Of a stretch of DNA of 64,000 nucleotides, positions 1 to 24,794 are shown piece after piece (position 1 is the first letter of the stretch; each line of letters starts with the position of its first letter). Location: assembly GCF_036203305.1 (NCBI RefSeq), contig NZ_CP108131.1, positions 6,510,001 through 6,574,000 of the forward strand. The letters are read 5' to 3'. The translations under genes were made by a program, and so were the position numbers. The DNA is from Streptomyces sp. NBC_00190. GTDB taxonomy: Bacteria; Actinomycetota; Actinomycetes; Streptomycetales; Streptomycetaceae. Under the pieces are notes generated by a model that made no database searches, was not told the DNA's origin, and worked only from the letters and a program-made list of their open reading frames with translations.

Positions 1-603
1 ACCACGATGGCCGAGGCCCAGGAGATCCTTCGGGCTGTTGTGTACGCGCTACCGAGGCCCCTGTCCGGCCCTTCTCCCTGATGCGTCCGGCAGGCCGGCC
101 GGACCTGACGCTCAACTTCGCCTTGCTCTGCAAGGGCCTGGAGAACACCACCGGAGCCCAGCGTGAGCACCGCTTCGGCCTGCTGCTCAAGCACGCTGAA
201 GAGGAGGGCACGAACATCGAGCCGATGCAGGACCATCACCTTCCGGTTCGGCTGCCCGCCCCGCGGTGGCTTGGCGCCGGCCTCGGCTGGATCCTGATGG
301 TCAGGATCGGCATGGACTCGATCGGGGAGGCAGCGCTCCAGCGCTAGCGACCAAGTGGCTCACGTCCTGATCCCCGCGTGTACGAGCCCCGGCTCCACCG
401 TCGACCCGACGGTGGCGCTTTCTTGCGCATCCAGTGGCCAAGAACTGTGGACTCAGATGAGTCTCCACGGTTGAAAATCAGCCACCTCGAAGCACGCCTG
501 GAGGTACGGCCGAGATGACTAGCGAGCGCATTTTCTGAGACTCCCTCAGCTGGTCAGTCAGGGTGTGTCAGACTGCAATCCGCATATCTTCAGGGGAGGA
601 AGA
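1..603. other. leader region left of the defence-like cassette, no confident gene
   Basis: There is one open frame on the plus strand at 81-347 (88 codons). Its translation has no recognisable domain and no good ribosome binding site, so I do not call it a gene; it may be the remnant of a gene that begins left of the window. A hairpin at 395-415 probably ends transcription from the left. The rest, 416-603, is the presumptive promoter and leader of the HerA-like gene. Confidence 0.4.
395..415. terminator. hairpin terminator
   Basis: Perfect 9-bp inverted repeat CCACCGTCG / CGACGGTGG with a 3-nt loop, followed by a short T-rich stretch. It would insulate the downstream three-gene cassette from leftward transcription. 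Confidence 0.5.
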
Positions 604-2667: not shown

Positions 2668-2674
2668 GGGTCGC

Positions 2675-4072
2675 ATGCCATACGAGACGGTTAATGGGTC
2701 TTTTGAGCGGGCTTCCCGAGTTGGGCACAGCAATGCTGCAATGCGAGCTTTGGCTGACAATTCGAACTTCTACGTCCCTGCCGAGAGCATCGGGGACTTG
2801 GAATGGCTGAAGCCCAAAATCAAGAGGGTCGAGCAGTTCTCCGGAGCTGCTAAGGGTGGGCATCTCTCGTCGGCCATAGCAATCGACGGCTCGCGTATGA
2901 GCGAGCGCATCCGAGATGGTCTACCTTCGGTAGTGTATGGCTACGCTCAGGCGGCTGCGGCGTACGTGGATCTAGGCGCCATGGAATTTCAGAGGGCTGA
3001 AAGGTTCGTCGACCCGGTAGCTATCGAGTCGGCGGTAAACACCGCACTGGTTTCGCTCGATCTACCCGTTGCTGGGGCGTACACGCGGCCTAGCATCGGA
3101 ATAGCCACCTCTTGGCGCGAGAACCTCGATCGGATATTTCGGACGAAAAAAGTCGAGGTGAATAGGCTCGATCAGACCCTCTTAGACCTACTCATGCTCG
3201 TCCATGGCACCCCTGGTCGACCTGCTAGGGGCGTCCCGGTCAATTGCCCGGCCGACGACTGCGACGCTCAGGACGTGCTGATCTCGACGCAAGGCGGCGT
3301 CTGCCCAATTTGCGAGCAGGTGCTGTACCCCACGGATGTCCTGCGCATCCACGAGGAGGTGATGGAGGAGGGAACGAACGAATCCGCCCTCGGTCGCCTG
3401 ATGTCTGTCGTTGAACTCCTCGTGCTAGTGGGACTCACCAGCCTGCTCTGGGAGCAATCACGAGACGACCTTCTGTGTTCCACTCTATTCATTGTGGATG
3501 GTCCGCTGGCTATGTATGGCCCGCCGGCCAAGCTTCGTGGTCGAGCCCAGGAGTACTTCCAGGCGATGGCTGCAACCACCCCCGGTGACGGGCCGTACCT
3601 GTGCGGCTTGGAAAAGACCGGAGCAATGGTCGACTATGCTCAGCAGTTGGCGCGCCATGAGGTCCTACAGCCCGGCGACCTCCTTGTCTGTGACGAGGAG
3701 GTCGTTAAAGTGGTGACTAACACCGCAAATGCATCCTCATACGGCAAGGAGACCTACTGGGGGCGTAAGTTTATCTACCGAGCCAAAGATGGGCGCATTG
3801 TTGTGCCGACTGTTATGCCAGTGACAGGTGCTGCGTACGATGCTCGAGGTGGCCAGGCCGGCCCGCAGGGGTATCCGACCTTGCCGGCGATCCTTGACGT
3901 GATCGACCGAACCGGATCATCCATGTACAAGGATGGCATCATCCCTGTCGCAGTGGCACATGGCAAGGCGGCGTTCCCCATCGGTGTCGGCACAGATGTA
4001 CTCCGGCTGGTTGCGGAACATAAACTGGGCCTTGGGGCATCTACTCGGGGGACGCAGGTCAGTGGGATATAG
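2675..4072 (+). CDS. NurA-type nuclease
   Basis: 465-aa protein with the NurA signature: a first acidic strand AIAIDGSR near residues 67-74 (catalytic Asp about D71), a second acidic strand FIVDGPLAMYG near residue 272, and a late ...LEKTG... segment. NurA enzymes are Mn-dependent nucleases that work with HerA in DNA end resection. An insertion near residues 190-225 contains two Cys pairs (CPADDC and CPIC), a probable zinc ribbon not expected in a minimal NurA domain. It is in the same operon as the HerA-like ATPase (7-nt gap) and is followed 12 nt later by a methyltransferase gene, so the three are probably co-translated. Family assignment rests on these motifs and the genomic pairing; the biological target is unknown. 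Confidence 0.75.
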   Translation: MPYETVNGSFERASRVGHSNAAMRALADNSNFYVPAESIGDLEWLKPKIKRVEQFSGAAKGGHLSSAIAIDGSRMSERIRDGLPSVVYGYAQAAAAYVDLGAMEFQRAERFVDPVAIESAVNTALVSLDLPVAGAYTRPSIGIATSWRENLDRIFRTKKVEVNRLDQTLLDLLMLVHGTPGRPARGVPVNCPADDCDAQDVLISTQGGVCPICEQVLYPTDVLRIHEEVMEEGTNESALGRLMSVVELLVLVGLTSLLWEQSRDDLLCSTLFIVDGPLAMYGPPAKLRGRAQEYFQAMAATTPGDGPYLCGLEKTGAMVDYAQQLARHEVLQPGDLLVCDEEVVKVVTNTANASSYGKETYWGRKFIYRAKDGRIVVPTVMPVTGAAYDARGGQAGPQGYPTLPAILDVIDRTGSSMYKDGIIPVAVAHGKAAFPIGVGTDVLRLVAEHKLGLGASTRGTQVSGI

Positions 4073-4084
4073 CGGGAGGGCTGG

Positions 4085-5335
4085 ATGAGTTCGGACAGTT
4101 TGCCAGGAGTGGTTACTGCCTGGTCGACGAGGCATGTCCAGCCCCCGCACGTCCCCAGCCGCCTAGCAGCTATTCCCAATGCTCCACGGAGCATTGGGAA
4201 TCCAATGAGGGCTGGATTGCGGGTTGAAGATGTAGATCACCCTTTGGCGCAGGGGAGGTATCAGACCCCGCTCAGGTACCCTGGCGCAAAGACAGGCCTT
4301 TCTAGCCTGATTGGTAATCTCATCGAATCGGCGAAGACTTCATCTCAGATTCGAAAAGTTGACCTTCTTGTTGAGCCATTCGCCGGGGGTGCCTCCACAT
4401 CCCTGCGACTGGTCGGAGCCGGGATCGTCAATCGAATTTTGCTAGCAGATGCGGACCCCTTGGTCGCTGCGTTTTGGCAAGTGGCTGCTGCGGATACAGA
4501 GAACTTCGTCGGCCGGATGGCAGAAGAGCACGCTCTATATATCAGCCCTGGTGGATCGACTGCACTCGATCGCTGGGATTACTGGCGGGCCTGGACGCCT
4601 GCTGCTGGAATGTCGGAATCGACCGCGCGTTTCGAAACCGCAGTTAAGTGCCTCTTTCTCAATCGGACTACCTTCTCGGGTATCCTCCATGGCAGTGCCG
4701 GCCCGATTGGCGGACGGAAGCAAGAATCCCAGTACGGGATAGGTTGCCGATTTAATGTAGAGCCTCTGTCTGAGCGCATTCGTTACGTAGGTCACTTGTA
4801 CGACACGAACCGCCTCGTGGATGTCTGGTGCAAGGACTGGAAAGATACGCTGGCTGACGTACCAGAATGGTATGCCGACCTGATTCCTGATCAGGTGGTT
4901 GCGTATCTGGATCCTCCGTATATCGAGAAATCCGAAAAGCTCTATCAGAGGTCATTTTATTCGCAGGTGAATAATTCGATGTCACCTGTGGATGATTTGA
5001 ACTGGTCGGACCGTTTCCCTCATTACCGCCTGGCTGAATATCTGCGAAATAGGATGCAATTTCGCTGGGTTCTTTCTTATGACGCCAAGCCGCAGCTCCT
5101 CTCGAACCCCTGGCTATATGCTGGCGACAGGATGACTCCCGGCGCGACGGAGAAGGAGGTCCTGGGTGTCAAAGAGTGGAGGATCTCAAAGAGGCTTGTC
5201 TCTCTCCGGTACACGGCTTCAGCCCGTCAAGGGCGTGGTGCTGCAGATGAATTGTTGGTCACTACCCTTCCGCCCTCGACAGTTCCGCAAGACGGCGACT
5301 TTCGGCCCGTCGGCGAAATGTTGCCAAGTGAGTAG
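4085..5335 (+). CDS. D12-class (Dam-like) DNA adenine N6-methyltransferase
   Basis: Class alpha/D12 adenine methyltransferase. The N-terminal motif RYPGAK is at about residue 64, the AdoMet motif EPFAGGAS at 97-104 and the catalytic DPPY at about 276-279. The expected product is N6-methyladenine in a short target that cannot be read from sequence. Start ATG 4085 has a strong GGGAGGG 4 nt upstream. However, the first ~60 residues are unlike the family and contain a perfect palindrome (4172-4201), and an in-frame ATG at 4205 would give a 376-aa protein beginning just before the conserved domain. It is the third gene of the HerA-NurA cassette and plausibly marks self DNA so that the motor-nuclease pair spares it (inference). 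A hairpin terminator follows. Confidence 0.85.
   Translation: MSSDSLPGVVTAWSTRHVQPPHVPSRLAAIPNAPRSIGNPMRAGLRVEDVDHPLAQGRYQTPLRYPGAKTGLSSLIGNLIESAKTSSQIRKVDLLVEPFAGGASTSLRLVGAGIVNRILLADADPLVAAFWQVAAADTENFVGRMAEEHALYISPGGSTALDRWDYWRAWTPAAGMSESTARFETAVKCLFLNRTTFSGILHGSAGPIGGRKQESQYGIGCRFNVEPLSERIRYVGHLYDTNRLVDVWCKDWKDTLADVPEWYADLIPDQVVAYLDPPYIEKSEKLYQRSFYSQVNNSMSPVDDLNWSDRFPHYRLAEYLRNRMQFRWVLSYDAKPQLLSNPWLYAGDRMTPGATEKEVLGVKEWRISKRLVSLRYTASARQGRGAADELLVTTLPPSTVPQDGDFRPVGEMLPSE
4172..4201. repeat. perfect 30-bp palindrome inside the methyltransferase 5' end
   Basis: Arms ATTCCCAATGCTCC and GGAGCATTGGGAAT are 14 bp each, perfectly complementary, with AC at the centre. It lies in frame within the start of the methyltransferase gene, 3 bp before the alternative ATG at 4205. 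The 8-mer GAGCATTG in its right arm recurs in another perfect palindrome at 21002-21038 and in the repeat at 18688-18733. It may be a translational or protein-binding control element, or an inserted palindromic unit. Confidence 0.8.
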
Positions 5336-5868: not shown

Positions 5869-7164
5869 CTACTGGCGGATGTACGCGAGCCCTGGGGCAC
5901 GGTCGAGGTCGAGGGTGAAGCGGTCAACCTGATCCATGCTGCTGGGGATGGTGAGGGTGTAGCCATTGCCGACGTGGACGCCCGGTCCTGTCGGGGTGAG
6001 CTGGTCCCTTGTCCCTCGGCGCCACAGGTGGAGGGCGCCGGCGCTGCTGGTGAGCTGCAGGCTGCCGAGGGCTTGGTCGCATGTGAAGGTGCCGATCTCT
6101 GTGTGCCGGTCGCGGTCGTCGAGTATGGGCTGGGTTCGTACGACAGTGCCCGGGATTCGCTCCAGGGTCGCGGCGCGGAGGAGGACTTCCTTGGGGGGCA
6201 GCATCGGCTGCTCGTGGAGGTCCCGGAGGATGGCGGCGGTGACGCGGTCGGTTGAGAGCCCGGCGTTGTTGGACAGGGCGATCACGCGTAGCCCTGATGC
6301 TTCCACGTGGGCAGCGGCGGAGAACCCCTGTTCGTGGCCGTAGTGGAAGACGGCAGTGCGGCCGGGGCGGGCGTCGGCGTAGAGCCCGGGGCCGTAGAGA
6401 TAGGGCTCGTGGTCGCTGGGCTCGTAGTCGACAGCTTCCTGCCAGGGGAGCTGGTGGGGGTGCTGCCAGTGCTGGTGGAGGTGGGTGAGCCAGCGGTCGA
6501 GGTCGCCGACTGTGGTCCATAGGGTGCCGGGTCCGGGCAGGGTGACCGGCGTTTCCGTGTGCTGCCACCCGTGTTGGGTGGCCTGGTAGGCGGATGCGGC
6601 TCCGGGGATGACCTGGCGGGGGTCCGTCTTGAAGCGGGTGGAGTGCATGCCGAGCGGGCCGAGAACGCGGTGCCGGACGAGGTCGGGCAGTGTGGTTCGG
6701 TGGACCGTTTCGAGGATCTCTGCCAGGAGGAGGTAGTTGGTGTTGCTGTAGAGGAAGCGGTCTTTGGGGACGGCGCGCTGATCCTGCCGGTAGGCGAGGG
6801 TTCGCAAGTCGTCGGCCGTGTAGTGGTCGAGGTCCCGGAAGCCGGCGAGGGAGAGCAGGGACTCGGCGTCGCGTATGCCCGACCGGTGGGTGACCAGGTC
6901 CGCGACGGTGACATCGCTGATCTTGAGTCGGGGCAGCAGGTCAGCGGCCCGCTGGCCCAGCTGCAGCAGGTTGTCACTCGCGGAGAGCAGGATCAGGTGG
7001 GCGGTGATCTGCTTCGCGACGGAACCGACGTTGAAGATGGTGTCCGGTCCGATGGGCAGTCCGTGTTCGAGGCTGGCCAGACCGGTGTGTAGAAGAGCGG
7101 GCTCTTCGCCCGGCTGGTGGACCAGCAGGGACAGGCCGGGCTCCTCGTCGCGGGCCGCGTTCAC
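5869..7164 (-). CDS. serine hydrolase of the beta-lactamase/DD-peptidase fold
   Basis: 431-aa class C beta-lactamase-like serine hydrolase. It has the nucleophile motif SVAK at about 48-51 (SxxK), YSN at about 139-141 (YxN), and GHEQG near 276-280 in the place of the HxG/KTG motif. No signal peptide is seen, so it is probably cytoplasmic, unlike penicillin-binding proteins. GTG 7164 is chosen because it overlaps the stop of the upstream HExxH gene (GTGA), giving translational coupling. As the last gene of the putative RiPP operon it might cut the leader from the modified peptide or act as an esterase/amidase on it; that is inferred from position only. Confidence 0.75.
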   Translation of the reverse strand: MNAARDEEPGLSLLVHQPGEEPALLHTGLASLEHGLPIGPDTIFNVGSVAKQITAHLILLSASDNLLQLGQRAADLLPRLKISDVTVADLVTHRSGIRDAESLLSLAGFRDLDHYTADDLRTLAYRQDQRAVPKDRFLYSNTNYLLLAEILETVHRTTLPDLVRHRVLGPLGMHSTRFKTDPRQVIPGAASAYQATQHGWQHTETPVTLPGPGTLWTTVGDLDRWLTHLHQHWQHPHQLPWQEAVDYEPSDHEPYLYGPGLYADARPGRTAVFHYGHEQGFSAAAHVEASGLRVIALSNNAGLSTDRVTAAILRDLHEQPMLPPKEVLLRAATLERIPGTVVRTQPILDDRDRHTEIGTFTCDQALGSLQLTSSAGALHLWRRGTRDQLTPTGPGVHVGNGYTLTIPSSMDQVDRFTLDLDRAPGLAYIRQ

Positions 7165-8072
7165 AGGGCGAGGGCCTGGTGGTGGGCGGCAGCGAGGCGA
7201 TCGCGGAGATCGTCGTTGCTGATCAGCTCCAGCGCGCGGGCATGATCGGGCGCGGTTCCGGCGAGGAGGCTTCGCTGCTGGTCGAGGTAGGCAGTCAGGA
7301 ACCGGTGCAAGTCTCCCGTGGCGCTGTTCAGTGCGTGGGCGGTGAACAGCATGGTGAGCGGGAACGCCCAGCAGGCGTGGAGGAAGCCGAACGCTGGCCG
7401 CATCGTCTGCTTCCACGGGGAGTGGAAGTGCGCAGCGTCGCTGATCTTGCATCCCGTTGCCGCGAGAGCGTCGTTCAGCCAGTTGTGCCCGGCCTCGTGG
7501 ATCAGGTCGCGGGCCAGGACTACCGGGTCGTCGACGTGGTCCATGAAGACCGTGCCCGGCAGGCGGCTGATGGTCCAGCTGTCGAGGGTCTCGCCGAGGT
7601 TCTTCGTCCGCAGCAGGCACAGGACGACGGCGTGCGCGGCAAGCAGATCACCGAAGCCCGCTCGTGCGGCGCTGGCGTAAGCGTCGGCCGCGAGGCTGCG
7701 CAGGTGGGGCTGGGCGGGCTCGGTACCGGGGCCGAGGACGTAATAGGGGGTCTCTGAGATCGCGGATCGGGGCAGGTCGGCGAGTGTGGGCGTGACGACC
7801 ACGCGGACGCCGACCGCGGTGGGAATGGAGTCGGTGGTGGCCCCCGCGTCGGGGTGGGCGACGTACCAGTCGAAGGTCGCGGCATCGCCGGCGCGGGCGG
7901 CTGCTTCGGCTCCTTCGAGGGCGTGGTGAGCCAGGCAGTAGTCGGCCGCCGCACTGGCGCCGGGCTGAGGCGCCCGGACTCCGGGGCGGATGACCGCGTG
8001 GATGCGCTGCGTCCGCTCGAGGTGGAGACGGCCGATCGGCGGGAGGTCGAAGAGGTCGGCGAGGGTGTGCAT
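7161..8072 (-). CDS. HExxH-motif protein, putative 2-oxoglutarate-dependent peptide beta-hydroxylase
   Basis: 303-aa protein with HEAGH at 192-196, followed by HSPWKQTMRP near 217-226 and LHACWAF near 231. This arrangement matches the HExxH-motif domain family (TIGR04267), found beside radical SAM peptide-modifying systems. Some members are now described as 2OG/iron-dependent peptide beta-hydroxylases; I rely on memory for that. The substrate would be the small peptide encoded just upstream at 8178-8321. An AGGAG site precedes ATG 8072, and a strong hairpin separates it from the peptide gene. The stop overlaps the start of the serine hydrolase gene. Family call is fairly sure; the exact chemistry is inference. 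Confidence 0.75.
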   Translation of the reverse strand: MHTLADLFDLPPIGRLHLERTQRIHAVIRPGVRAPQPGASAAADYCLAHHALEGAEAAARAGDAATFDWYVAHPDAGATTDSIPTAVGVRVVVTPTLADLPRSAISETPYYVLGPGTEPAQPHLRSLAADAYASAARAGFGDLLAAHAVVLCLLRTKNLGETLDSWTISRLPGTVFMDHVDDPVVLARDLIHEAGHNWLNDALAATGCKISDAAHFHSPWKQTMRPAFGFLHACWAFPLTMLFTAHALNSATGDLHRFLTAYLDQQRSLLAGTAPDHARALELISNDDLRDRLAAAHHQALAL

Positions 8073-8099
8073 GAGGCGGCTCTCCTGTTCGGTGGCGGG

Positions 8100-8136
8100 C
8101 CTGGGGCCGGGCCGCAGGTGGCGGCCCGGCCCCAGG
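8100..8136 (-). terminator. attenuator-like hairpin between precursor and HExxH genes
   Basis: Perfect 16-bp stem CCTGGGGCCGGGCCGC / GCGGCCCGGCCCCAGG with a 5-nt loop, without a T-tract. It sits between the stop of the 47-aa peptide gene and the start of the HExxH gene. Partial terminators just after the precursor gene are common in RiPP operons and raise precursor over enzyme levels. Confidence 0.6.
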
Positions 8137-8177
8137 TGTGTTCACCGGCGGCGCTCAGCGTGCCGGGCGGCTGTGGT

Positions 8178-8321
8178 TCAGGCGGTGGTGGTCGCCGCCT
8201 TGGCCGCCGGCCAGCCCTCGGCCGAGACGCTGGAGGTGTGGGCGGTGGTACGGACGGTCTCGTCCTCGCCGCGCAGGTCCTCGACGTTGGCGAGGAATTC
8301 GGCGATGCGGTCCTGGTTCAT
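8178..8321 (-). CDS. candidate RiPP precursor peptide
   Basis: 47-aa peptide starting MNQDRIAEFLANVEDL and ending WPAAKAATTTA, with AAAGGCGGA before ATG 8321. The acidic, amphipathic N-terminal ~20 residues look like a leader that a modifying enzyme could bind. The C-terminal half is rich in Thr/Ser/Ala and has single His (about 28), Trp (about 37) and Lys (about 41) residues that could be modified. It lies inside a one-strand operon with radical SAM, 2OG-oxygenase-like and HExxH genes and is followed by an attenuator-like hairpin. No Cys is present, so a thioether lanthipeptide or sactipeptide is unlikely. Assignment is from position and composition. Confidence 0.65.
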   Translation of the reverse strand: MNQDRIAEFLANVEDLRGEDETVRTTAHTSSVSAEGWPAAKAATTTA

Positions 8322-8434
8322 GAGGTGTTCCGCCTTTCGGTCTCGTTGGCTTCGGCTTGTTCCGCTTGCTGTGTTGTGGCGCCCGGTACGCGGCGGTGCT
8401 CTCGCCCTGGGCATGAGGGGCTCCCTCGCGTCGA

Positions 8435-9301
8435 TCAGCGTTGGTGGAGGTCGGCCGCTGTGCGGAGCGCGGTGTGTAGGTCGTCCATGGCGGGGCGGTC
8501 GCCCGCGGCGTCGGAGAGAGCGCCGGTGACGACGCTGCGCAGCGGCTCGAGGATGAGGGGGAGTTTCGTACGGCCGGCGAGGCGGGGGATGTCCGCGCAC
8601 AGGTAGCGGTAGATGAGGACGGCGAGGCTGAACACGTCGGCTGCCGGGGTGGCCTCGTGGTAGCCAGTGAGGTACTCCGGCGGCCAGTGGACCTCGGGGC
8701 CGCGGTGTTCAGGCCCGCGCGGGGTGGACAGGCGGCGGGCGGCTCCGAGGTCGGTGATCAGGCCCCGGCCCTGGTCGATGAGGATGTTCTCCTGGTAGAC
8801 GTCGCGGTGGACGATTCCACGCTGGTGCAGGTTGTCCAAGCCGTCGGCGACGTCGGCGAGGATGCTGAGACCCTTCCCGGTGTCTTTCGACGAGGCCATG
8901 AAGGCCCGGAAGTTCCTGCCGTCGCAGTGCGGCATGGTGTACCAGTCGAACCGCTCCGAGCTGCCCTGTTCCAGCAGCGGGACGACGTGATCGGTTCCTC
9001 CGGCGGCAGCGGTCAGCTCCGCCTCATGGTGAAAGTCTTCACGGGTGAGGGCACGTTCGGTCTCGGTCATCTGCGCGTACCAATAGAAACCGTACGCGGC
9101 CGGCTTCTGGCTGGGGTCGAGGTCGGCGAGGACGTGGTTGCTGCCGAAGCCCGCCTTCAGTACGACGTCCTGCTTGCCGGGGCGGCTCGCTCTGACCAGG
9201 GTGCTGGCCCGCGTGAACGCGAGGAGGTCGCTGATGTGCCACCCGTCCGTGCGGAGCTGATCAAGGACCCAGGCTGCGGGATGCATCGGGTGCAGGTTCA
9301 T
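8435..9301 (-). CDS. protein-kinase-fold protein (Ser/Thr kinase-like)
   Basis: 288-aa single-domain kinase. Visible elements are VVLK with the ATP-binding Lys at about 49, an alpha-C Glu near 93, the catalytic loop HRDVYQEN at 165-172 and DLG instead of DFG at 184-186, followed by the ...PPEYL... and DVFSL elements of an activation segment and helix F. All catalytic residues are present, so it is probably active. No membrane segment. Start ATG 9301 gives a 41-bp overlap with the preceding P-loop kinase gene. It could phosphorylate the precursor peptide, a small molecule, or a pathway protein; a peptide-modifying role is inferred from its position next to the precursor gene. Confidence 0.7.
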   Translation of the reverse strand: MNLHPMHPAAWVLDQLRTDGWHISDLLAFTRASTLVRASRPGKQDVVLKAGFGSNHVLADLDPSQKPAAYGFYWYAQMTETERALTREDFHHEAELTAAAGGTDHVVPLLEQGSSERFDWYTMPHCDGRNFRAFMASSKDTGKGLSILADVADGLDNLHQRGIVHRDVYQENILIDQGRGLITDLGAARRLSTPRGPEHRGPEVHWPPEYLTGYHEATPAADVFSLAVLIYRYLCADIPRLAGRTKLPLILEPLRSVVTGALSDAAGDRPAMDDLHTALRTAADLHQR

Positions 9302-9938
9302 CGGCTCGCTTCCTGTTCTTGGGGCTGCCGGCCGAGCGGAGGTCCTCCATGCAGGCGTCGACCAGGGCTTCGAGATCGGCATGGGTCATGCAGGGGTGCT
9401 TCAGCACGGGAAGGCCAGTGGCCTTGGTCCAGGCGTCGGCGGCCTCGTTGTAGAGGTCGGCCAGCCGGGCGGCGGCCTCGGGGTGTTCGGTGAAGCGGCG
9501 TTCTGTCGCGCGTCGAGTGATGCGGGTGTGGCAGATGTCGGGCTCGGTGGTCAGCAGGACGGTCAGCTGCGGACGGGCCTGGGTTTGCTCGGCGAGGCGC
9601 TCGACGTACGCGTCGACGGGCTGCTGGTGGAGCAGGGCGAGCAGGCAGGCGGTGGAGAGGGTGAACCGGTCGGCGAGGACCGGGCCCTCGGTGAGGGCGA
9701 CGGCGATGTTGAAGCGGGAGTGCAGGGCCAAGTCCTGTGTGGCGGCCTCGATGGCCTCCTGCTCGTCCCCTCCGTGGCCGGCCCGCAGGCGGATCAGGGT
9801 GCGGGTGGCCGAGTGGGAGAGCCAGGAGCACTGGCCGATGTGGCTGAGGGGGATGCCCTCGGCGTGGGCAGTGGCCAGGAGTTGGTCGCGGAGGGTGCTT
9901 TTTCCGGCGCCCGCTATGCCTTCCAAAGCCAGGAGCAC
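9261..9938 (-). CDS. P-loop (thymidylate/deoxynucleoside-kinase-like) kinase
   Basis: 225-aa P-loop protein with GIAGAGKST immediately at the N-terminus (residues 7-15) and a DRF motif near residue 80 (LADRFTLS), followed by an Arg-rich lid segment near 130-145 (TRRATERRF). This layout resembles thymidylate and deoxynucleoside kinases. GTG 9938 is selected: it begins 5 nt after the stop of the 2OG-like gene and puts the P-loop at the usual distance from the start. A longer frame upstream would overlap the neighbour extensively. In this operon it might phosphorylate a peptide or a nucleoside-like cofactor rather than dTMP; unknown. Confidence 0.65.
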   Translation of the reverse strand: MLLALEGIAGAGKSTLRDQLLATAHAEGIPLSHIGQCSWLSHSATRTLIRLRAGHGGDEQEAIEAATQDLALHSRFNIAVALTEGPVLADRFTLSTACLLALLHQQPVDAYVERLAEQTQARPQLTVLLTTEPDICHTRITRRATERRFTEHPEAAARLADLYNEAADAWTKATGLPVLKHPCMTHADLEALVDACMEDLRSAGSPKNRKRADEPAPDASRSLGP

Positions 9939-9942
9939 GCGC

Positions 9943-10677
9943 TCACCCGGCCGCGGTGGGCTCGGCGATGAGCCAGCTGATGAACTTGGCGACCCGGCCA
10001 GCGGTGACCGGGAGGGTTCCGTGCGCGAGCTGGGAGCCGTACAGCAGGGCGGTACCGGGCGCCGGGGCGACGCTCCAGCGGGTTCGGGGCATCTGCTGGA
10101 ACCAGGTCGCGGAGTTGTCCGCGCCGTCGTGGGCCAGCCACATGCCCTCCGCGTAGCCGTTCGATGCGGCATCGGGGGCCTTGCCGTTCCACAGCCGGTC
10201 GCTGGAGGAGGTCTCGACGTAGAAGTCGCCCCCGGCGTCGGCCTGGGTGATCACGACGCTGATGCCGGCGATCTGGCGGGGCCAGGCGAGCGGGTCGGGG
10301 GCGATGCCGTCGAGGTGGCAGGTGATGTGCTGGCCCACGCCGTACTCGACGTACGTCCACGGGCGGCAGATGGTGATCGAGGGCATGACGCGGGAGAGCT
10401 CCGGGCGAGCGCGTTCGAAGGCGTCGCCCAGGAGCTTCTCGGCGGCCTGGGGGATCGAGGGGATCTCGACGCGTCCGGCCGGCTCGTAGACGGCCATGGC
10501 TTGTTCGGGGCTGTGGCCGGGGATCTCGTGGATGGAGGTGCGGCGCTCGTCACCGAAGCGGCTGGTGCCGCCGTTGGTCAGGACGTCGTTCATCAGATTG
10601 GCGAGGTGGGTCCGCTCGGCGTTGCTGAGGAAGTTCTCGATGCTTCCGACGCCGACGGTCTCGGCTATGTGGATCAC
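9943..10677 (-). CDS. 2-oxoglutarate/Fe(II) oxygenase-like protein
   Basis: 244-aa protein with a double-stranded beta-helix pattern and the facial triad H121-x-D123 (CHLDG) and H219 (LAHGT), plus Arg about 228 for 2-oxoglutarate. It fits the 2OG-Fe(II) dioxygenase superfamily, which hydroxylates or otherwise oxidises peptides and small molecules. Its start overlaps the stop of the upstream gene by ATGA, and 4 nt separate its stop from the next gene. Together with the HExxH protein the operon would have two different 2OG-type oxygenases. The substrate is unknown; the precursor peptide is the obvious candidate. Confidence 0.65.
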   Translation of the reverse strand: MIHIAETVGVGSIENFLSNAERTHLANLMNDVLTNGGTSRFGDERRTSIHEIPGHSPEQAMAVYEPAGRVEIPSIPQAAEKLLGDAFERARPELSRVMPSITICRPWTYVEYGVGQHITCHLDGIAPDPLAWPRQIAGISVVITQADAGGDFYVETSSSDRLWNGKAPDAASNGYAEGMWLAHDGADNSATWFQQMPRTRWSVAPAPGTALLYGSQLAHGTLPVTAGRVAKFISWLIAEPTAAG

Positions 10678-11306
10678 TTCGTGGTTCCCCCTTGCTGGAG
10701 CACGCGGTGGATGTCGTTCAGGTCCGTGCAGTGGTTGAGCCAGCTGACGACCGGCCTACGGGTGGCAGCCAGCGGGTCCCGCCACAGGGCGAGGAGCTCT
10801 CCGGTCAACGGCAGGGCGCTGCTGTCGGGCAGCAGGTCAGCAGCAGGTGTCTCGGCCTGGGCCAGGGTGCGGCACGAGGTCCCGTGCTGCTGGGTGAAGA
10901 CGAGGGCGAGACGGGTTGCGGCCGTGGTGCGGCAGGCCCACACGAGGGGGTCCGGGGGCAGTGGCAGTCCGTATGAGCGGTGTTCGGTGACTGCCCATGC
11001 CTGGGCGATGGCGGCGCCGGAGGCTGCGATGCGGCAGGCCGCGCAGCATCGGTGGTCGGAGTCCGGGCATGGGCGGAGGTGCTCGCCGAGGGTGGTTGCG
11101 ATCTCGTCGAGGACTGCCCAAGCGGTCCTCGCCAGCACGGTTCCGACGTCTGGCTGTCCGGATCCCGCGGTGTCCTTTTGGTTGCAGCAAGGCTCGCCCG
11201 CTCCGGGCTGCTCGCTGGAGGTGAGGGCGGGTTCGATGAACAGGGTGTGGAAGTAGGCGATGCGTCCGAGGAGCTGGTGAATGGTGACCGCGTCGCCGGG
11301 CTTCAT
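10674..11306 (-). CDS. Cys-containing hypothetical protein of the radical SAM operon
   Basis: 210-aa protein I do not recognise. It is mostly helical in character, with a central cluster of Cys and His (CPDSDHRCCAACRIA near residues 78-92) plus a CC pair near 41, suggesting a metal or iron-sulfur site. ATG 11306 overlaps the radical SAM stop (ATGA) and its own stop overlaps the next start (ATGA), so it is made in step with both neighbours. It could be a partner protein or peptide-recognition subunit for the radical SAM enzyme; that is inference from coupling only. Confidence 0.6.
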   Translation of the reverse strand: MKPGDAVTIHQLLGRIAYFHTLFIEPALTSSEQPGAGEPCCNQKDTAGSGQPDVGTVLARTAWAVLDEIATTLGEHLRPCPDSDHRCCAACRIAASGAAIAQAWAVTEHRSYGLPLPPDPLVWACRTTAATRLALVFTQQHGTSCRTLAQAETPAADLLPDSSALPLTGELLALWRDPLAATRRPVVSWLNHCTDLNDIHRVLQQGGTTK

Positions 11307-13189
11307 CGCAGCACCCCCTCGGGGGCTTGCGGCGACGCCGGTAGCGGGCAGGCGCACGCGGATTCGGCCTCGGGGCGCTCGGCATCGAGGGCTGCGGCCA
11401 ACACAGCGGTGGCCTCGTCCAGGCGGGCAAAGTAGCCGTCCCACCCCTGACCGGAGCCGGGGTCCAGGCTCAGGTCGAGGACCGGGGTGGTGGTGCCCGT
11501 GTTCTCACAGGTGAGCTCCGAGCGTCCGACGTTGACCTCGATGCCCTCGGGGAAGAGGGCGGTTGCGAAGGTGGCAGCGCGGCACAGGGCCGCAGCAGCG
11601 CGGGCGTACTCCTGGCGGTCGCGGGGGAGGAGCCCGATGCGTAGACCCGTTGGGGCCAGGTCCGTGCCGGTGTACTGGTGGCCCTGGCAGCTGTCGTACG
11701 TCACGAGCCCCCAGGCTCGGGTGACCGTGTCGACCAACGGCCAGACGCCGGGTTCGATGGCGGCCCGCCACATCGGGTGGGCTGGGGTCAGGTCGTCGGC
11801 CTCGTGGATACCGGCGAGGCCGACAGTGTTGATATTGCCGTGCTCACTGGTGTGCAGCCTGACTTCGTTGCCGACGAGGTCGGGAGTGTCCCAGCGGTTC
11901 AGGAAGGCGTTCACGTCGTGCATGCTGTTCGGGGTGCGCGGGCGCCAGCGCAGGCTCTGGCACCAGGCGCCGGCGGGGTGCGCCGGCTGGGCCAGCAGGG
12001 CGGCGACGCCGTCGATCATGCGCATGCGGTAGTCGCAGTACGCGTCGTGATCGTTGGTCGGGTCCTGGCGCCAGCGGGTGGCGATGCACCCTCCGCCGCA
12101 GGTGGTGCGGTAGTCGCAGGTCGTGCACCTGTCCATCAGGGCTTTGCCCTGATCCAGGAGGAGGGAGTCCTGCTGGGCGCGGACCACCTCGTGCTCGTCG
12201 GCCGTGGACTCCAGCTGGGTGAGGCGGGCCTGGGGCCAGGGAAGTTCGTCGCAGCTCCCGAGGCGGCCATCGGGGTAGAGGGTGAAGACGTGGTCGCACT
12301 TGAGGTCGGAGAAGTGGCAGAAGCCTGTCGTCAGACCCCGTAATCGCCGGATCGTGGAGACGGCCGGTTCCAGCTTGATACGGGCGCAGTGTCCGGCGGT
12401 GATCCAGTAGGCGGTGGCGGCAATGACGAACTGGGCGTATTCGTCAGGATGGATCGCCCAGGCCGGGCCATCGGCTGCGTTCACGGCAGCCTGCTGAAGC
12501 AGTCGGCTGGCTGACTTGCGCCTGCTCGGCAGGGCCGTGGAGCGGCGGATCGTGGAGTCGAAGCAGGGTACGAAGCTGATCGCGTTGACCGAACCGAAGC
12601 CGGCGAGGTGGTCCAGCACCTCTTCGGCGCGGTCCAGCACCGCCGGGGTCACCGCGGCGATCACACCGACGCTCCGGCCCTGCTCCGCGAGAAGGTTCAG
12701 GGCGGCGGCGACGCGCGGATACACGGGCTTGCCGTCGTAGCCAACACGCCAGGCGTTGCCCTGGGCGTCCCCGTCGAGGGAGATACCGATTCGGAGGCCA
12801 GGGCAGAGAGTGTCGAACATGTCGAGCCACCCGCCGTCGAGCAGGACACCGTTGGTCTGCAGGCTGACACGGACGACCTGCGGCAGGTCGGCGAGCTCCG
12901 CGAGGATCTCGCCGATGTGCTCCCGTCCCGCAGTCAGGGGCTCGCCGCCGTGGAGTTCGACGGCGAGCTTGCGGCCCTTGAAGATGTCGGCCAGGCGCCT
13001 GATCTGGTCGGCGCTGACCCTGGCGCCCCCAGGCGCCTCCTTGCGCTTCTCGTAGCAGTAGAGGCAGTCGATGTCGCACGTCTCGCCGCGCGTCTTGACG
13101 ATGACCGACACCGCGGTGCCGGTGTCATCGGCGTCCAGGTTCCGGTAGAGCCTGTTGATCGTGTGGCGCTGTTCTGTGCTGTGGTTCAT
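11303..13189 (-). CDS. radical SAM/SPASM peptide-modifying enzyme with C-terminal extension
   Basis: 628-aa radical SAM protein. The CxxxCxxC cluster is at C38, C42 and C45, and HGGEPL is near residue 90. A SPASM-type Cys-rich region lies near 290-390 and includes CTTCDYRTTCGGGC. These features place it with peptide-modifying enzymes such as the FxsB and cyclophane-forming groups. The last ~230 residues (about 400-628) are an extra domain with short motifs such as TYDSCQGH that I cannot assign. GGAGGGGG precedes ATG 13189. It follows the Nudix gene by 39 nt and is coupled to the next gene. Probable role: carbon-centred crosslinking or oxidation of the 47-aa peptide. Confidence 0.85.
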   Translation of the reverse strand: MNHSTEQRHTINRLYRNLDADDTGTAVSVIVKTRGETCDIDCLYCYEKRKEAPGGARVSADQIRRLADIFKGRKLAVELHGGEPLTAGREHIGEILAELADLPQVVRVSLQTNGVLLDGGWLDMFDTLCPGLRIGISLDGDAQGNAWRVGYDGKPVYPRVAAALNLLAEQGRSVGVIAAVTPAVLDRAEEVLDHLAGFGSVNAISFVPCFDSTIRRSTALPSRRKSASRLLQQAAVNAADGPAWAIHPDEYAQFVIAATAYWITAGHCARIKLEPAVSTIRRLRGLTTGFCHFSDLKCDHVFTLYPDGRLGSCDELPWPQARLTQLESTADEHEVVRAQQDSLLLDQGKALMDRCTTCDYRTTCGGGCIATRWRQDPTNDHDAYCDYRMRMIDGVAALLAQPAHPAGAWCQSLRWRPRTPNSMHDVNAFLNRWDTPDLVGNEVRLHTSEHGNINTVGLAGIHEADDLTPAHPMWRAAIEPGVWPLVDTVTRAWGLVTYDSCQGHQYTGTDLAPTGLRIGLLPRDRQEYARAAAALCRAATFATALFPEGIEVNVGRSELTCENTGTTTPVLDLSLDPGSGQGWDGYFARLDEATAVLAAALDAERPEAESACACPLPASPQAPEGVLR

Positions 13190-13228
13190 CGGCTGCCCCC
13201 TCCTATGCTGCCGTGACCGGATGCCTGG

Positions 13229-13663
13229 CTAGTCGGACAGACGCCCCAGCAGGGCGCCCTGGCCGGACTGGAGAATGTGTGCGGCCTCCAGCGGCATCCA
13301 GAAGCACTCGAAGTGAGTCGGCTCCTGCTCGCCGTCGTGGTCCTCTTGGCTCATCCACCGCTCCGGGGTCGGCTCGGTGAGCTCCAGGTAGAAGACGTGC
13401 CGGTGCTGGATCTCGAATCGGTACGGGCTGATGTCGTACTCGGTCTCGCCGAGCTTGCGGACGATCTTGAAGTCCGACAGGCCGGTCTCCTCGCGGGCCT
13501 CGCGCAGAGCGGCGGCCTCCGGGGTCTCACCGGGACGGATGCTGCCTGCGGGCACCTGGATGCCAACCTCCTCGTAGGAGTAGTCGGTGTGGCGGAACAC
13601 CAGCAGGCGCCCGTCGCGCACGACGTAGACGAGGACCTTTTCCTTCGTGACCTTCTCGGGCAT
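13229..13663 (-). CDS. Nudix hydrolase
   Basis: 144-aa Nudix protein with a complete Nudix box: G...E then REAREETGL, at about residues 44-66, fitting Gx5Ex7REUxEExGU. It would hydrolyse a nucleoside-diphosphate-linked compound. ATG 13663 is preceded by GGAGG at the right distance; a start at 13678 would lack it. It is the first gene of the long reverse operon. Its tie to peptide modification is unclear; removal of damaged cofactor or regulation by a nucleotide are possibilities. The gap 13664-13813 upstream holds the presumptive operon promoter. Confidence 0.85.
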   Translation of the reverse strand: MPEKVTKEKVLVYVVRDGRLLVFRHTDYSYEEVGIQVPAGSIRPGETPEAAALREAREETGLSDFKIVRKLGETEYDISPYRFEIQHRHVFYLELTEPTPERWMSQEDHDGEQEPTHFECFWMPLEAAHILQSGQGALLGRLSD

Positions 13664-13813: not shown

Positions 13814-14410
13814 TCAGTCGATGGACTGGCCCGTAAAGGGCCGCCATGCTGTCGGGGCTGCAGTCCGGCGCCAGGCCCCCGTTCGGGTGTGCGATGGCGC
13901 TCCAGCTGCCGGTGTACGAACCCTCGTCACCGCCCGATCAGCCACGTCGCCGGTATGGTCGTGGAGCAGACGCCGATCACGACGGCTGTCCTGATCTGTC
14001 GGTCGATCACCCGCGCTGCTGGGCAGATCGAACTCCGCCCAGCAACGCTTGCCCGTCGCCGTCAGATCGGCACCGTGGCGGTCGGCGAGCACGGATACGA
14101 GATACAGACCGCGCCCAGACTCGGCGCTCCCGCTCAAGGGTTCCGGGTGCGGCAGCACCTTCGCCGCGTCGTGCACTTCGACCACAAGCACCGGCCCCTC
14201 CTGACTAACGCTGACGGTGACCGGACCCGACGCGGTGTGACGCACAGCGTTGGTGATCAGCTCACCAGCCGCCAGCTCGATTCCGTCTAGGGCCTCCCCG
14301 TCGATCCCTATGCCCCAGGAGTGAATGCCGGCCACGACGCGGTGTCGTGCCTGCTGGGCGGCGGCTGCCGTTCGGGCGACGGTGAACGCGAGCTGGTGGT
14401 GCGCTGCCAT
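13814..14410 (-). CDS. anti-sigma/SpoIIAB-like histidine-kinase-type ATPase
   Basis: 198-aa protein with a GHKL ATP-binding domain: N-box ELITNAVRHT near 55-65, VEVHDAA near 85, G1-like GRGLYLV near 105. There is no dimerisation or receiver domain, as in the many stand-alone anti-sigma-like ATPases of Streptomyces. ATG 14410 is used because the domain begins directly after it. The C-terminal ~70 residues are low-complexity and Arg-rich. It is divergent from the TPR regulator gene at 14640 and may regulate the cluster through a sigma/anti-sigma partner switch, which is not shown here. Confidence 0.8.
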   Translation of the reverse strand: MAAHHQLAFTVARTAAAAQQARHRVVAGIHSWGIGIDGEALDGIELAAGELITNAVRHTASGPVTVSVSQEGPVLVVEVHDAAKVLPHPEPLSGSAESGRGLYLVSVLADRHGADLTATGKRCWAEFDLPSSAGDRPTDQDSRRDRRLLHDHTGDVADRAVTRVRTPAAGAPSHTRTGAWRRTAAPTAWRPFTGQSID

Positions 14411-14639
14411 GAGTGGGCCTCCTGGGCTACCTGACTTGCGTAACCACGGCGGTGACTCGGCCTCGCAGGGCGCTGTCTTGCCGGGGCGAAGACGAAGTGT
14501 TCCCGGCGGCTCCCGCCTGAACGAGGCCCTGAACGACGCCGAACGCGGCCCTTTCATGCCTAACCGATGTCTATTCACCGTCCACCTGGATTTTCTGGAC
14601 AACAGATCTTCGATCGGGGGCTGTTGATGTCTAGCGTGG

Positions 14640-16043
14640 ATGTCGGACAAGGAACCCCGGCATGAGGGAGCGGCTGTGGAGCCATCAGGACCGACCCTCT
14701 TCCAGACTCTGATCAACCAGCGGGGCTGGCAGGACTACCAGGTCTTCAAGCGGCGCTACGAGCAGGCGGCCAAGCAATTAGCGGAGTTGGAGGGACCGCT
14801 CTCGATCTCGACCGCGACGATCGAGAAGCGGCAGTTCTTCCGATACGCGCATGGCGAGGTCCGGACCCCGCAGACCGTCGCCCGCCGCGTCCTGGAGTTC
14901 ATGTTTTCGGGCATCCCGGCCACCCGACTCCTCGGGCCTGCGGAGTCCAAGCCGGGCCCCTCCCCACATTACCCAGCGGCTGACGACCGAGATGCAGTGG
15001 ATCCATCCGAGTACGGCCTTGAAGACGTGGTCATGGCGGCGGCGAATGAGTCGGCGCAGTTCGCGGCCAAGGCAGAGAGCAGCAACGTGGGACCGCACAC
15101 GCTGGAGCAGCTGGAAGCTGACATCCGCCGCCTCGTCATGACGTACCCCAACCGGCCCGTCGGGCCCCTGTTCCGCGAGGTCCGTGCCCTCCGAGACCGC
15201 GCCTTCGAACTTCTCGAAGGACGTCAGCCACCGCGGTACACCTCCGACCTCTACGTGGGCGCCGGCGTCCTGTGCGGCGTTCTGGCGAACGCCAGTTTCG
15301 ACCTGGGCCGCTACGACGCGGCCGAGACACAAGCCCGTACCGCCTTCCTGTTCGGCGAACTCGCGGGGCACAACGGACTGCGCTCCTGGGTACGCGGACT
15401 CCAGGCCCTGATCGCGTACTGGGACGGTCGCCCCGTAGACGCTGTACGCCTTGCGGACTCCGGAAGCGCGTTCACCCCGGAGTCCGGCACGGCGCAGATC
15501 CGGCTGGAGAGCATCAAGGCACGCGCCTACGGCCAGCTCAGCAGGGGCAGCGATGCCCTGGCGGCCCTCAGCGCCGCCGACCACCTGCGAGAGCGTCTCG
15601 CCGAGGGGGACGAACTGCCAGGCGGGATGATGGCCTTCCCCGTCGAGAAGCAACTCTTCTACTCCAGCAGCACGCACCTCTGGCTGGCAGGCACCCAACA
15701 CCTCAGCGATGCCGAGGCTCGCGCCGACGAAGCTGTGGAGATGTTCCAGTCAGCGCCGCCGGAGCAGCAGAGACTCGGCGAGATGTCCCTGGCCCGCATG
15801 GACCTGGCCATGGCTCGGCTGGGCCGAGGAGACATCGACGGGGCGGCGACCCAGATCCACGCCGTCCTCGGGGTCAGCGCCCGGCGCCGCACCGAGAGCG
15901 TCGACCGCCGGATCGGCCAGTTCAGTCGTCAGCTCGCGCTGCACCCCGGGGCCGGATCACCTGCCGCGATCGGCCTTCGTGAGGTGATCATTGCTCATCA
16001 GGAACGCATGCCCGCTCAGCTCCCGCCAGGAGGCAGCCAGTGA
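14640..16043 (+). CDS. XRE/TPR-type transcriptional regulator
   Basis: 467-aa protein. The N-terminal ~100 residues carry a Streptomyces-type helix-turn-helix region (TLFQTLINQRGWQDYQVFKR...), and residues ~150-460 are helical TPR-like repeats typical of multi-domain regulators that sense peptides or other ligands. Its stop overlaps the start of the reductase gene by GTGA, so the two are coupled. It is transcribed divergently from the ATPase gene at 13814-14410. As the only complete large regulator near the radical SAM operon it is the best candidate for its control (inference). Confidence 0.75.
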   Translation: MSDKEPRHEGAAVEPSGPTLFQTLINQRGWQDYQVFKRRYEQAAKQLAELEGPLSISTATIEKRQFFRYAHGEVRTPQTVARRVLEFMFSGIPATRLLGPAESKPGPSPHYPAADDRDAVDPSEYGLEDVVMAAANESAQFAAKAESSNVGPHTLEQLEADIRRLVMTYPNRPVGPLFREVRALRDRAFELLEGRQPPRYTSDLYVGAGVLCGVLANASFDLGRYDAAETQARTAFLFGELAGHNGLRSWVRGLQALIAYWDGRPVDAVRLADSGSAFTPESGTAQIRLESIKARAYGQLSRGSDALAALSAADHLRERLAEGDELPGGMMAFPVEKQLFYSSSTHLWLAGTQHLSDAEARADEAVEMFQSAPPEQQRLGEMSLARMDLAMARLGRGDIDGAATQIHAVLGVSARRRTESVDRRIGQFSRQLALHPGAGSPAAIGLREVIIAHQERMPAQLPPGGSQ

Positions 16044-16882
16044 CGACCGTGACCCTCTTGCACCCCGGCGCCATGGGCGCGGCCGTCGCCGCCCAGGCCG
16101 TCAAGGCAGGTCACGAGGTGCTGTGGGTGCCGGAAGGCCGCAGCGACGCGACGCACCGACGCGCGAAGGAAGTCGGCGCCACCGCGTGTGACTCGCTCGA
16201 CGAAGCGCTGGAACGGAGTGAGATCGTCCTGTCGATCTGTCCTCCGCAGGCCGCCGAAGACGTGGCGACCACGGTCGCCGGCCACGCCTTCGCCGGGGTG
16301 TACGTGGACGCCAACGCGATCAACCCCAAGCGAATGCAGCGAATCGCGGAGGAGATCAGGCCGGGCGCCATGGTCCTGGACGGTGCGATCTTCGGCCCGC
16401 CGCCCGGTGGCCAGCGGGCTGCTCGCCTCTACCTCGCCGGCGAAGCCCAGGCTGTGGACACGGTGCAGCCCGTGTTCAAGGACACCGCATTGCACGTCCG
16501 CCGCACGAGCGGCAGCGTCGGCTCAGCCTCCGCGCTGAAGATGGCATTCGCCAGCTACCAGAAGGCCGCCCGAACTCTCGCCGGCGTGGCCCACGCGCTG
16601 GCCGACGCTCATGGCGTCGGCGACGAGCTCACGGCCGAGGCGCAGGTGATGGCGTCCAACATCCTCTCCGACCCTGGATACCTTCCCAGCGTGGCCGCAC
16701 GCGCCTGGCGCTGGGCTCCGGAGATGGAGGACATCGCCGAAACGCTCCGCACCGCCGGGTTGCCTGTAGATATGGCCGAAGCGGCGGTCGCGGTCATGGC
16801 CCGCTGGGAAGGAGACAAGGACCACTACGACCTGTCGGTCGCAGAGGTCTTGTCCCATTTGCGGGAACAGCCTGCTCGCTGA
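16040..16882 (+). CDS. NAD(P)-dependent beta-hydroxyacid-dehydrogenase/imine-reductase-like protein
   Basis: 280-aa protein with an N-terminal Rossmann fold (LLHPGAMGAAVA, GxMGxx near residues 6-17) and a C-terminal all-helical domain of the DUF1932 type near 190-255. This places it with 6-phosphogluconate/3-hydroxyisobutyrate dehydrogenase relatives and imine reductases. The usual catalytic Lys may be K172 in LKMAFASYQK. GTG 16040 overlaps the regulator stop. The substrate is unknown; coupling to the regulator and closeness to the RiPP-like operon suggest a tailoring or linked metabolic step. Confidence 0.8.
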   Translation: MTTVTLLHPGAMGAAVAAQAVKAGHEVLWVPEGRSDATHRRAKEVGATACDSLDEALERSEIVLSICPPQAAEDVATTVAGHAFAGVYVDANAINPKRMQRIAEEIRPGAMVLDGAIFGPPPGGQRAARLYLAGEAQAVDTVQPVFKDTALHVRRTSGSVGSASALKMAFASYQKAARTLAGVAHALADAHGVGDELTAEAQVMASNILSDPGYLPSVAARAWRWAPEMEDIAETLRTAGLPVDMAEAAVAVMARWEGDKDHYDLSVAEVLSHLREQPAR

Positions 16883-21152: not shown

Positions 21153-22488
<1,336 letters not shown>

Positions 22489-22492
<4 letters not shown>

Positions 22493-24463: not shown

Positions 24464-24742
24464 ATGTCTCCCCGTGTGTCGCCGCTAGGGAGGGGCTTTC
24501 TGAAGGTGCGTGAAGCTGCCGAATACCTGGGGCTGTCGCCCTGCACCCTTTACGTGTGGCGGCACCGTCGCCAAGGTCCGCCGAGTTTTCGGATGGGGCG
24601 GAGCGGACGTGTGATGTACCGGATCGAAACGCTTGATGAGTGGATCCGGGAACAGGAGCAGGCGGACTCCCGCAGTAATACCTCCCTAAGTCCGGTGAAT
24701 GTCGCCCCGCAGTGCCGCGCCGGGTATCCGGCCACAGCCTGA
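24464..24742 (+). CDS. excisionase-like MerR/HTH_17 protein
   Basis: 92-aa protein with a winged HTH_17 domain: VREAAEYLGLSPCTLYVWRH then GPPSFRMGRSGRVMYR and LDEWI. This is the standard layout of actinomycete excisionases, which bend DNA at the attachment site and steer the integrase. The start is uncertain: ATG 24464 is used, but GTG 24506 is preceded by GGGAGGGG and starts right at the domain. The gene is followed by the integrase gene on the same strand. Confidence 0.75.
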   Translation: MSPRVSPLGRGFLKVREAAEYLGLSPCTLYVWRHRRQGPPSFRMGRSGRVMYRIETLDEWIREQEQADSRSNTSLSPVNVAPQCRAGYPATA

Positions 24743-24794
24743 CCGCCCGGCCTTACCGCCCGCCCTACGTCCACCCCTTACCCCGAGGAATTCT

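Follow-up and report, generated by a model that had tools for sequence, protein, structure and literature searches.

A short peptide with a conserved H-x-S core in a Streptomyces operon of radical SAM, HExxH-type and thymidylate-kinase-like enzymes

What could be made by an operon that combines a radical S-adenosylmethionine (SAM) enzyme, two putative oxygenases, two kinases and a peptide of 47 residues? Such an operon was noticed in Streptomyces sp. NBC_00190 (genome size 8.9 Mb; nearest named relatives in Streptomyces), in a stretch of 64,000 nucleotides (contig NZ_CP108131.1, positions 6,510,001 to 6,574,000) that is called the window here. An earlier note, made from the sequence alone, had listed nine genes in one reverse operon and read them as a pathway for a ribosomally synthesized and post-translationally modified peptide (RiPP). 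The open reading frames (ORFs) and their Pfam and NCBIfam matches bear out all nine genes at 13663-5869 on the minus strand in the order first listed (Table 1): a Nudix hydrolase, a radical SAM/SPASM enzyme (rSAM), a Cys-rich protein (helper), a 2-oxoglutarate-Fe(II) oxygenase-like protein (2OG), a thymidylate-kinase-like P-loop enzyme (TMPK), a Ser/Thr kinase, the peptide, an alpha-ketoglutarate-dependent HExxH-type hydroxylase (aKG-HExxH or HExxH), and a serine hydrolase. In summary, comparison of related loci indicates that the 47-aa peptide is a genuine, selected RiPP precursor.

Does the peptide gene travel with the enzymes? In a sample of 392 genomes of the genus, rSAM (threshold E<=1e-80) was found in 25 genomes and the peptide (E<=0.01) in 26, and in the 22 genomes common to both the two genes lie 0.8-3.0 kb apart. 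Among the three rSAM genomes without a peptide match, G024 and G378 have a cluster of another type (type C, see below) and G028 has a deletion remnant; the G024 locus (L075) and L137 of Streptomyces minutiscleroticus each encode their own divergent precursor. Four genomes have the peptide but no rSAM. Three of them retain the HExxH gene, which is almost complete in L078 and partial in L077 and L079; the fourth match (L080) was judged to be due to chance and discarded.

Related loci were then collected with rSAM as the anchor. The best 80 of 127 relatives in named genomes gave 79 loci, of which 12 with weak rSAM relatives (L148-L159) were excluded, leaving 67 for gene counts; these, the window, and seven others make up the 75 loci surveyed for precursors. 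The search pattern was found in 68 of the 75, a count that is partly built in because the pattern contains the H-x-S-type motif itself, while the co-occurrence in the 392 genomes is independent of the pattern. The precursor of L142 has TRHTS, outside the pattern, and the divergent precursors of L143, L145, and L146 were detected via locus comparison. Only L113 and L132, both at contig ends, and the deletion remnant L136 have no precursor. Thus, peptide homologues accompany the conserved enzymes; their absence was what the earlier note had named as damaging to its reading.

The precursor profile matched 196 database proteins in a search that favours proteins having five-letter words in common with the queries. 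All of the 120 matches listed have H-x-S-x6-W, and no core position other than the His, the Ser at +2, and the Trp at +9 is invariant among the 120. Where the sources name any of these 120, it is as a hypothetical or uncharacterized protein. In a cross-phylum alignment of 14 sequences, the His is present in 14, the Ser in 13, and the Trp in 13. The aromatic-x-x motif that is expected of a triceptide precursor is therefore conserved, as H-x-S in all listed homologues and in 13 of the 14 aligned sequences, the other one having H-T-A.

The peptide is also under selection. In the 36 loci with an ungapped leader and core, differences from the window fall on codon positions 1, 2, and 3 in the numbers 86, 90, and 223. 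Differing codons of the leader are synonymous in 67 cases and non-synonymous in 145, and those of the 12-residue core are synonymous in 49 and non-synonymous in 28. With the window as the reference, and with estimates that are rough at twelve codons per locus, the core has a non-synonymous rate (dN) of zero and a synonymous rate (dS) of 0.12-0.44 in 13 of 35 loci, Nocardiopsis and Actinospica included, while it is identical to that of the window, and so uninformative, in 11. Taken together, the co-occurrence in 22 of the 25 rSAM genomes, the selection on the core, and the homologues strongly support the peptide as a precursor, and the RiPP assignment of the earlier note is well supported. A hairpin follows the precursor gene (Table 1), and in 48 of the 53 other loci folded (6 with unsuitable spacing were excluded) the corresponding hairpin has z<=-2. 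Such a hairpin may allow more of the precursor to be produced than of the downstream enzymes.

Is the entire gene set conserved? Counting a gene as present when a match covers at least 35% of the query, rSAM was found in 67 of the 67 loci, TMPK in 64, HExxH in 63, the helper in 60, Nudix in 59, and 2OG in 57. The helper count pools three protein groups, namely the type A Cys-rich protein, a type B 245-aa protein, and a type C/alphaproteobacterial protein. The other genes are a TylF methyltransferase (31), a hydroxyacid dehydrogenase (30), a phosphoenolpyruvate (PEP)-mutase-like protein (29), a nucleotidyltransferase (29), the Ser/Thr kinase (25; the raw count of 26 includes an opposite-strand match of 35% coverage in the remnant L136), and the serine hydrolase (23). 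Thus, rSAM, TMPK, and HExxH are near-constant, but 2OG and the Ser/Thr kinase are not universal. The earlier note had seen novelty in two kinases and a second oxygenase; this holds family-wide for TMPK, while the Ser/Thr kinase and the second oxygenase are type-specific and cannot be the core logic.

Three types of cluster were distinguished, with L098, L100, and L101 being mixed. Type A, that of the window, was found in Streptomyces, Nocardiopsis, Actinomadura, Nocardia, Actinospica, and Micromonospora, and type B in Streptomyces, Kitasatospora, Actinomadura, and Micromonospora. Type B has a precursor core of the same kind and adds the PEP-mutase-like protein, the TylF methyltransferase, the 2-hydroxyacid dehydrogenase, and the nucleotidyltransferase (e.g., L067:6754-16040). 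Type C, found in four Streptomyces, adds an amine oxidase, a family 2 glycosyltransferase (GT2), an AICARFT-like protein, an epimerase, and two APH kinases (L075:845-11821, precursor TAHSSAVSVKPW); judging from its genes, it elaborates a core of this kind with a third set of tailoring enzymes. A phosphonate RiPP was considered for type B and rejected: its PEP-mutase-like protein reads EDSxxxxxNS, and phosphonate makers have EDKxxxxxNS. Two linear plasmid records, for which the underlying gene table is incomplete, hold a short type B cluster in which neither 2OG nor TylF is annotated (Kitasatospora cathayae) and a type A cluster without the serine hydrolase (Streptomyces clavifer), the precursor being annotated as hypothetical in both.

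Outside the Actinomycetota, loci of Azospirillum, Thalassobaculum, and Paracoccus retain rSAM, HExxH, TMPK, and the precursor. Nudix and HExxH are one protein in Azospirillum and Thalassobaculum, and a similar fused protein is found in Xanthobacter; the alphaproteobacterial fusions are single open frames (L145:8017-9366 and L146:11799-13148). Within the types, the identities of the other genes rise and fall with that of rSAM. The correlations are 0.949 for HExxH, 0.949 for TMPK, 0.97 for 2OG, and 0.841 for Nudix in 25 type A loci, and 0.977, 0.985, 0.861, and 0.98, respectively, in 28 type B loci; they indicate joint inheritance rather than interaction, since shared operon descent alone gives high values. 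Partial loci with the peptide and HExxH but without rSAM (L077, L078, and L079), with Nudix and an rSAM fragment (L180 and L181), or as a remnant (L136) suggest that the operon was repeatedly lost.

What may the constant enzymes do? The radical SAM/SPASM assignment of rSAM is supported by its CX3CX2C motif and by the SPASM model TIGR04085 (38.5 bits; cut-off 27); in its C-terminal domain (about 395-628) no fold was recognised. The best relative of rSAM in the PDB is the radical SAM domain of ChlB (9gm3; 2.2e-25), followed by sulfatase maturases (1.8e-19). The hydroxylase exceeds the cut-off of the aKG-HExxH model TIGR04267 (54.6 bits against 40), and its profile aligns weakly to ChlH (8s5f; E 7.5e-5). 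Of its 63 homologues, 62 have HExxH and 57 the strict RPxxGxxHA; five others retain the His in RS or HS variants, and L085 is truncated. A permissive HxD..H..R/K pattern is found in all 57 homologues of 2OG. The helper has invariant Cys residues at 40, 41, 87, 88, 91, and 145 in 22 sequences, and its AlphaFold2 (AF2) model has a predicted local distance difference test score (pLDDT) of 73.8. The three helper groups have by eye a common GR..H..LFIEP-like start and EL..LW-like end; treating them as one family was rejected on the hhalign results (probability 40% over 23 columns, and 0.3%). The C-terminal end of the type B 245-aa protein, KYxGGTGAGQVE, is nearly invariant in 11 aligned sequences.

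The protein that had been called a P-loop kinase is more exactly thymidylate-kinase-like: it scores above the cut-off of the thymidylate kinase family PF02223 (Table 1), weakly matches a thymidylate kinase in the PDB (E 0.006), and keeps the P-loop and DRxxxS in 64 of 64 homologues. However, its score for the thymidine monophosphate (dTMP) kinase equivalog TIGR00041 is only 39.2 of 83.25 bits, and a GQxSW-type stretch, found in 33 of the 64, occupies the place where dTMP kinases carry TREPGGT. Thus, its acceptor is likely to differ from dTMP. Since TMPK matches the hydroxylase in constancy across the 67 loci, what it acts on is a well-defined question that experiments can address. Each type adds a further phospho- or nucleotidyl-transferase: the Ser/Thr kinase in type A, to which it is restricted among the loci compared, the nucleotidyltransferase in type B and L145, and the two APH kinases in type C. 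When six genes were compared across 25 type A loci, Nudix was the most conserved, with a mean identity of 0.883, and its fusion to HExxH in L145, L146, and Xanthobacter favours a link with the pathway.

From these observations, a RiPP that resembles the triceptides, with phosphotransfer as an additional step, can be proposed. The 47-aa precursor would be recognised via its FLxxVxxLR leader. Then, rSAM may join the imidazole carbon of His28 to the beta carbon of Ser30, since H-x-S (H-x-A in L141) fits the motif of a three-residue cyclophane; the crosslink site is chosen by analogy with known maturases. The conserved core points to this crosslink as the first step, which was absent from the earlier proposal of hydroxylation followed by phosphorylation. 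The aKG-HExxH enzyme, together with 2OG in types A and B, might next hydroxylate core residues; the His is the first candidate, following ChlH, which hydroxylates His and Asp according to the accessible part of PMC12636437. TMPK, present in every intact cluster but L141, would phosphorylate the modified peptide or a piece released from it, with a possible contribution of the Ser/Thr kinase in type A only. Nudix and the serine hydrolase may trim or release the product, which is the weakest part of the scheme. I give the pathway as a whole slightly better than an even chance. A bolder form, in which the family is a new RiPP class ranging from Actinomycetota to Alphaproteobacteria and the TMPK-fold enzyme phosphorylates the peptide, perhaps to a diphosphate, after crosslinking by rSAM and hydroxylation by HExxH of His-x-Ser, is a tentative idea that I consider rather unlikely. 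If true, it would be the first peptide kinase with a nucleotide-kinase fold known to me, and one H-x-S scaffold would be elaborated by at least three tailoring sets.

Several points weigh against this pathway. Among the NCBIfam models, rSAM matches that of the anaerobic sulfatase maturases best (134.5 of 349 bits), and its scores lie below the cut-offs of the named cyclophane maturases FxsB (92.3/370), YhhB (103.8/445), AmcB (92.4/425), and GrrM (66.6/310 bits); being far under every curated equivalog cut-off seen, it could have a different chemistry. I know of no peptide kinase with a thymidylate-kinase fold. The H-x-S is H-T-A in L141, a metagenome-assembled genome (MAG) that has rSAM and the precursor and lacks TMPK (as do L132 at a contig end and the remnant L136), and the Paracoccus precursor has no Trp. 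The core has dN>0 in 11 of the 35 loci, with dN 0.234 above dS 0.197 in L106, albeit roughly over 12 codons. Nudix (E<=1e-35) was found in 19 of the 392 genomes, of which 9 are on the rSAM list and 10 have no rSAM, although L180 and L181 among these 10 retain rSAM fragments. The Nudix box reads RE..EE in 28 of 59 proteins and has RK or RT forms in 30 (RK..QE in 21, other forms in 9), with one unmatched; the altered boxes of type B (e.g., L107 and L110) suggest an altered or non-hydrolytic role there. It is not certain that Nudix is a dedicated member of the pathway. Finally, the Pfam matches of the nine type A operon proteins include no transporter.

The missing transporter would suit a peptide-derived small molecule or cofactor, for which a crosslinked and hydroxylated His-x-Ser piece is excised and finished by TMPK, Nudix, the nucleotidyltransferase, or sugar enzymes. 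Both TMPK and Nudix folds usually act on small phosphates, and the core is nearly fixed across families while the type B and type C tailoring sets differ. On the other hand, there is no dedicated leader protease and no obvious scaffold-recycling gene, and the whole 12-residue core, beyond H-x-S, is kept in most type A loci, which suggests that it is important either as a peptide or for recognition. As the phosphate may go on the peptide or on a released fragment, I regard this explanation as possible, though the odds are against it.

Could the Ser/Thr kinase instead act as in lanthipeptides, phosphorylating core Ser or Thr residues that are then eliminated to dehydro residues and attacked by the His? 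Noursin has such a bond between His and 2-aminobutyric acid (Abu) in the accessible part of PMC10206099, and the kinase weakly resembles LanL (34.4 bits) and LanKC (21.1 bits). However, these scores are far below the class III/IV synthetase cut-offs of 650 and 575 bits, no lyase or cyclase domain was matched in the nine proteins with Pfam and NCBIfam, and H-x-S is retained in loci without the kinase, which is found in just 25 of 67. This route is thus very unlikely. Still less probable is a viperin-like chemistry, in which rSAM makes a modified nucleotide that TMPK phosphorylates for defence: the PADLOC matches of rSAM, with 31.1 bits for pVip and 21.5 bits for viperins associated with kinases, are weak and are outscored by the sulfatase maturase model, rSAM has a SPASM domain and resembles ChlB, and the operon holds a conserved precursor and a peptide hydroxylase. 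That the peptide's short ORF arose by chance amid an unrelated set of genes, as its shortness and its lack of a Pfam or NCBIfam match might suggest, can practically be dismissed given the core selection, the rSAM co-occurrence, and the 196 database homologues.

Table 1. Features of the operon in the window
Feature	Position	Strand	Match or score
Nudix hydrolase, 144 aa; complete Nudix box GSIRPGETPEAAALREAREE	13229..13663	-	Pfam NUDIX 5.1e-19
Radical SAM/SPASM enzyme, 628 aa; CX3CX2C (CDIDCLYC) at 38, SPASM Cys 355-364	11303..13189	-	Radical_SAM 2e-12
Cys-rich helical protein of unknown function (helper), 210 aa	10674..11306	-	no Pfam/NCBIfam match
2OG-Fe(II) oxygenase-like protein, 244 aa; HLD at 121	9943..10677	-	PF13640 23.8 bits, below 27-bit cut-off
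Thymidylate-kinase-like (TMPK) P-loop enzyme, 225 aa; GIAGAGKS, DRFTLS, GQCSW	9261..9938	-	PF02223 39.5 bits, cut-off 27; 6.1e-10
Ser/Thr kinase, protein-kinase fold, 288 aa; VLK, HRDVYQEN, DLG	8435..9301	-	PF00069 67.9 bits, 1.2e-18
Precursor peptide, 47 aa; FLANVEDLR leader, TAHTSSVSAEGW core, variable tail	8178..8321	-	
16-bp GC hairpin between precursor and HExxH genes	8100..8136	-	minimum free energy (MFE) -58.1, z -3.9 (8177-8073 folded)
aKG-HExxH-type peptide beta-hydroxylase, 303 aa; HEAGH 192, SPW 218, RPAFGFLHA 225	7161..8072	-	TIGR04267 54.6 bits, cut-off 40
Serine hydrolase, beta-lactamase/D-aminopeptidase family, 431 aa; SVAK, YSN	5869..7164	-	PF00144 137 bits, 1.1e-39

The ATGA/GTGA couplings that had been described were seen between rSAM and the helper (11306-11303), the helper and 2OG (10677-10674), and HExxH and the hydrolase (7164-7161). 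The gap between 2OG and TMPK is 4 bases, and the TMPK and Ser/Thr kinase genes overlap by 41 bases. Gaps of about 113 and about 105 bases flank the peptide gene, so its co-transcription with its neighbours is presumed. PDB relatives of the serine hydrolase include D-Ala-D-Ala carboxypeptidase, D-aminopeptidase, and ClbP, and no signal peptide is evident by eye.

Adjoining the operon, a low-GC block (58-59%) on the plus strand (565-5335) looks like a defence island: it encodes a HerA-type ATPase (PF01935), a D12-class adenine methyltransferase similar to PADLOC PD-Lambda-5_B (167 bits), and a protein of 465 aa for which no match was found. On the other side (13814-16882), there are genes for an RsbW-like ATPase, for an NADP oxidoreductase-like protein, and for a regulator-like protein of 467 aa that no Pfam model matches. 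This trio also adjoins the operon in five relatives (L053-L057), and its genes are perhaps regulators of the operon. Further away are an IstB-like gene (21794-22492) and a phage-type integrase gene (24699-26042, plus strand), and the region may belong to an integrative element.

How does the operon compare with known systems? Pathways with rSAM and HExxH enzymes for peptides are only recently being described. In the accessible parts of the literature on rSAM/HExxH RiPPs, cyclophanes, triceptides, FxsB, and thymidylate kinase with RiPP, no description of this operon family and no rSAM and HExxH peptide pathway with a constant nucleotide-kinase-like enzyme was found, which is not proof of novelty. 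The fixed core amid changing tailoring sets indicates the site of the chemistry, and the combination of an FLxxVxxLR-like leader with a following H-x-S-x6-W offers a hook for genome mining of this unannotated family.

Mycofactocin and PQQ are peptide-derived cofactors, and pearlins are also of the scaffold type. Like the first two, the operon has an rSAM enzyme and a short fixed core, with no exporter among the type A genes; no genes matching theirs were noticed in the operon, for which no dedicated search was made. Noursin resembles the operon in having a His crosslink and kinase activity in Streptomyces; however, as far as the accessible part of PMC10206099 goes, it is made by a class III lanthipeptide synthetase, and the operon has none. 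The triceptides of HaaB and ScaB likewise combine an rSAM enzyme with a three-residue motif starting with His. In the accessible part of the review PMC11002830, HaaB and ScaB form bonds from His C2 to the beta carbon of Ala, the motif of ScaB being His-Ala-Ala, and MscB forms a bond from Phe to the beta carbon of Ser. Compared by description only, the operon differs in a motif that ends in Ser, in the fixed Trp at +9, and in its added hydroxylase and phosphotransfer enzymes. The best PDB matches of rSAM and the hydroxylase, ChlB and ChlH (Morishita et al. 2024, cited in PMC12636437), are also an rSAM/SPASM and an aKG-HExxH enzyme acting on one peptide; they are fused, and form a cyclophane and beta-hydroxylate His and Asp (PMC12636437, accessible part). 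In contrast to these, the enzymes of the operon are separate proteins, its precursor has a single H-x-S motif, and the TMPK-like enzyme, Nudix, the helper, and, in type A, the Ser/Thr kinase are additional.

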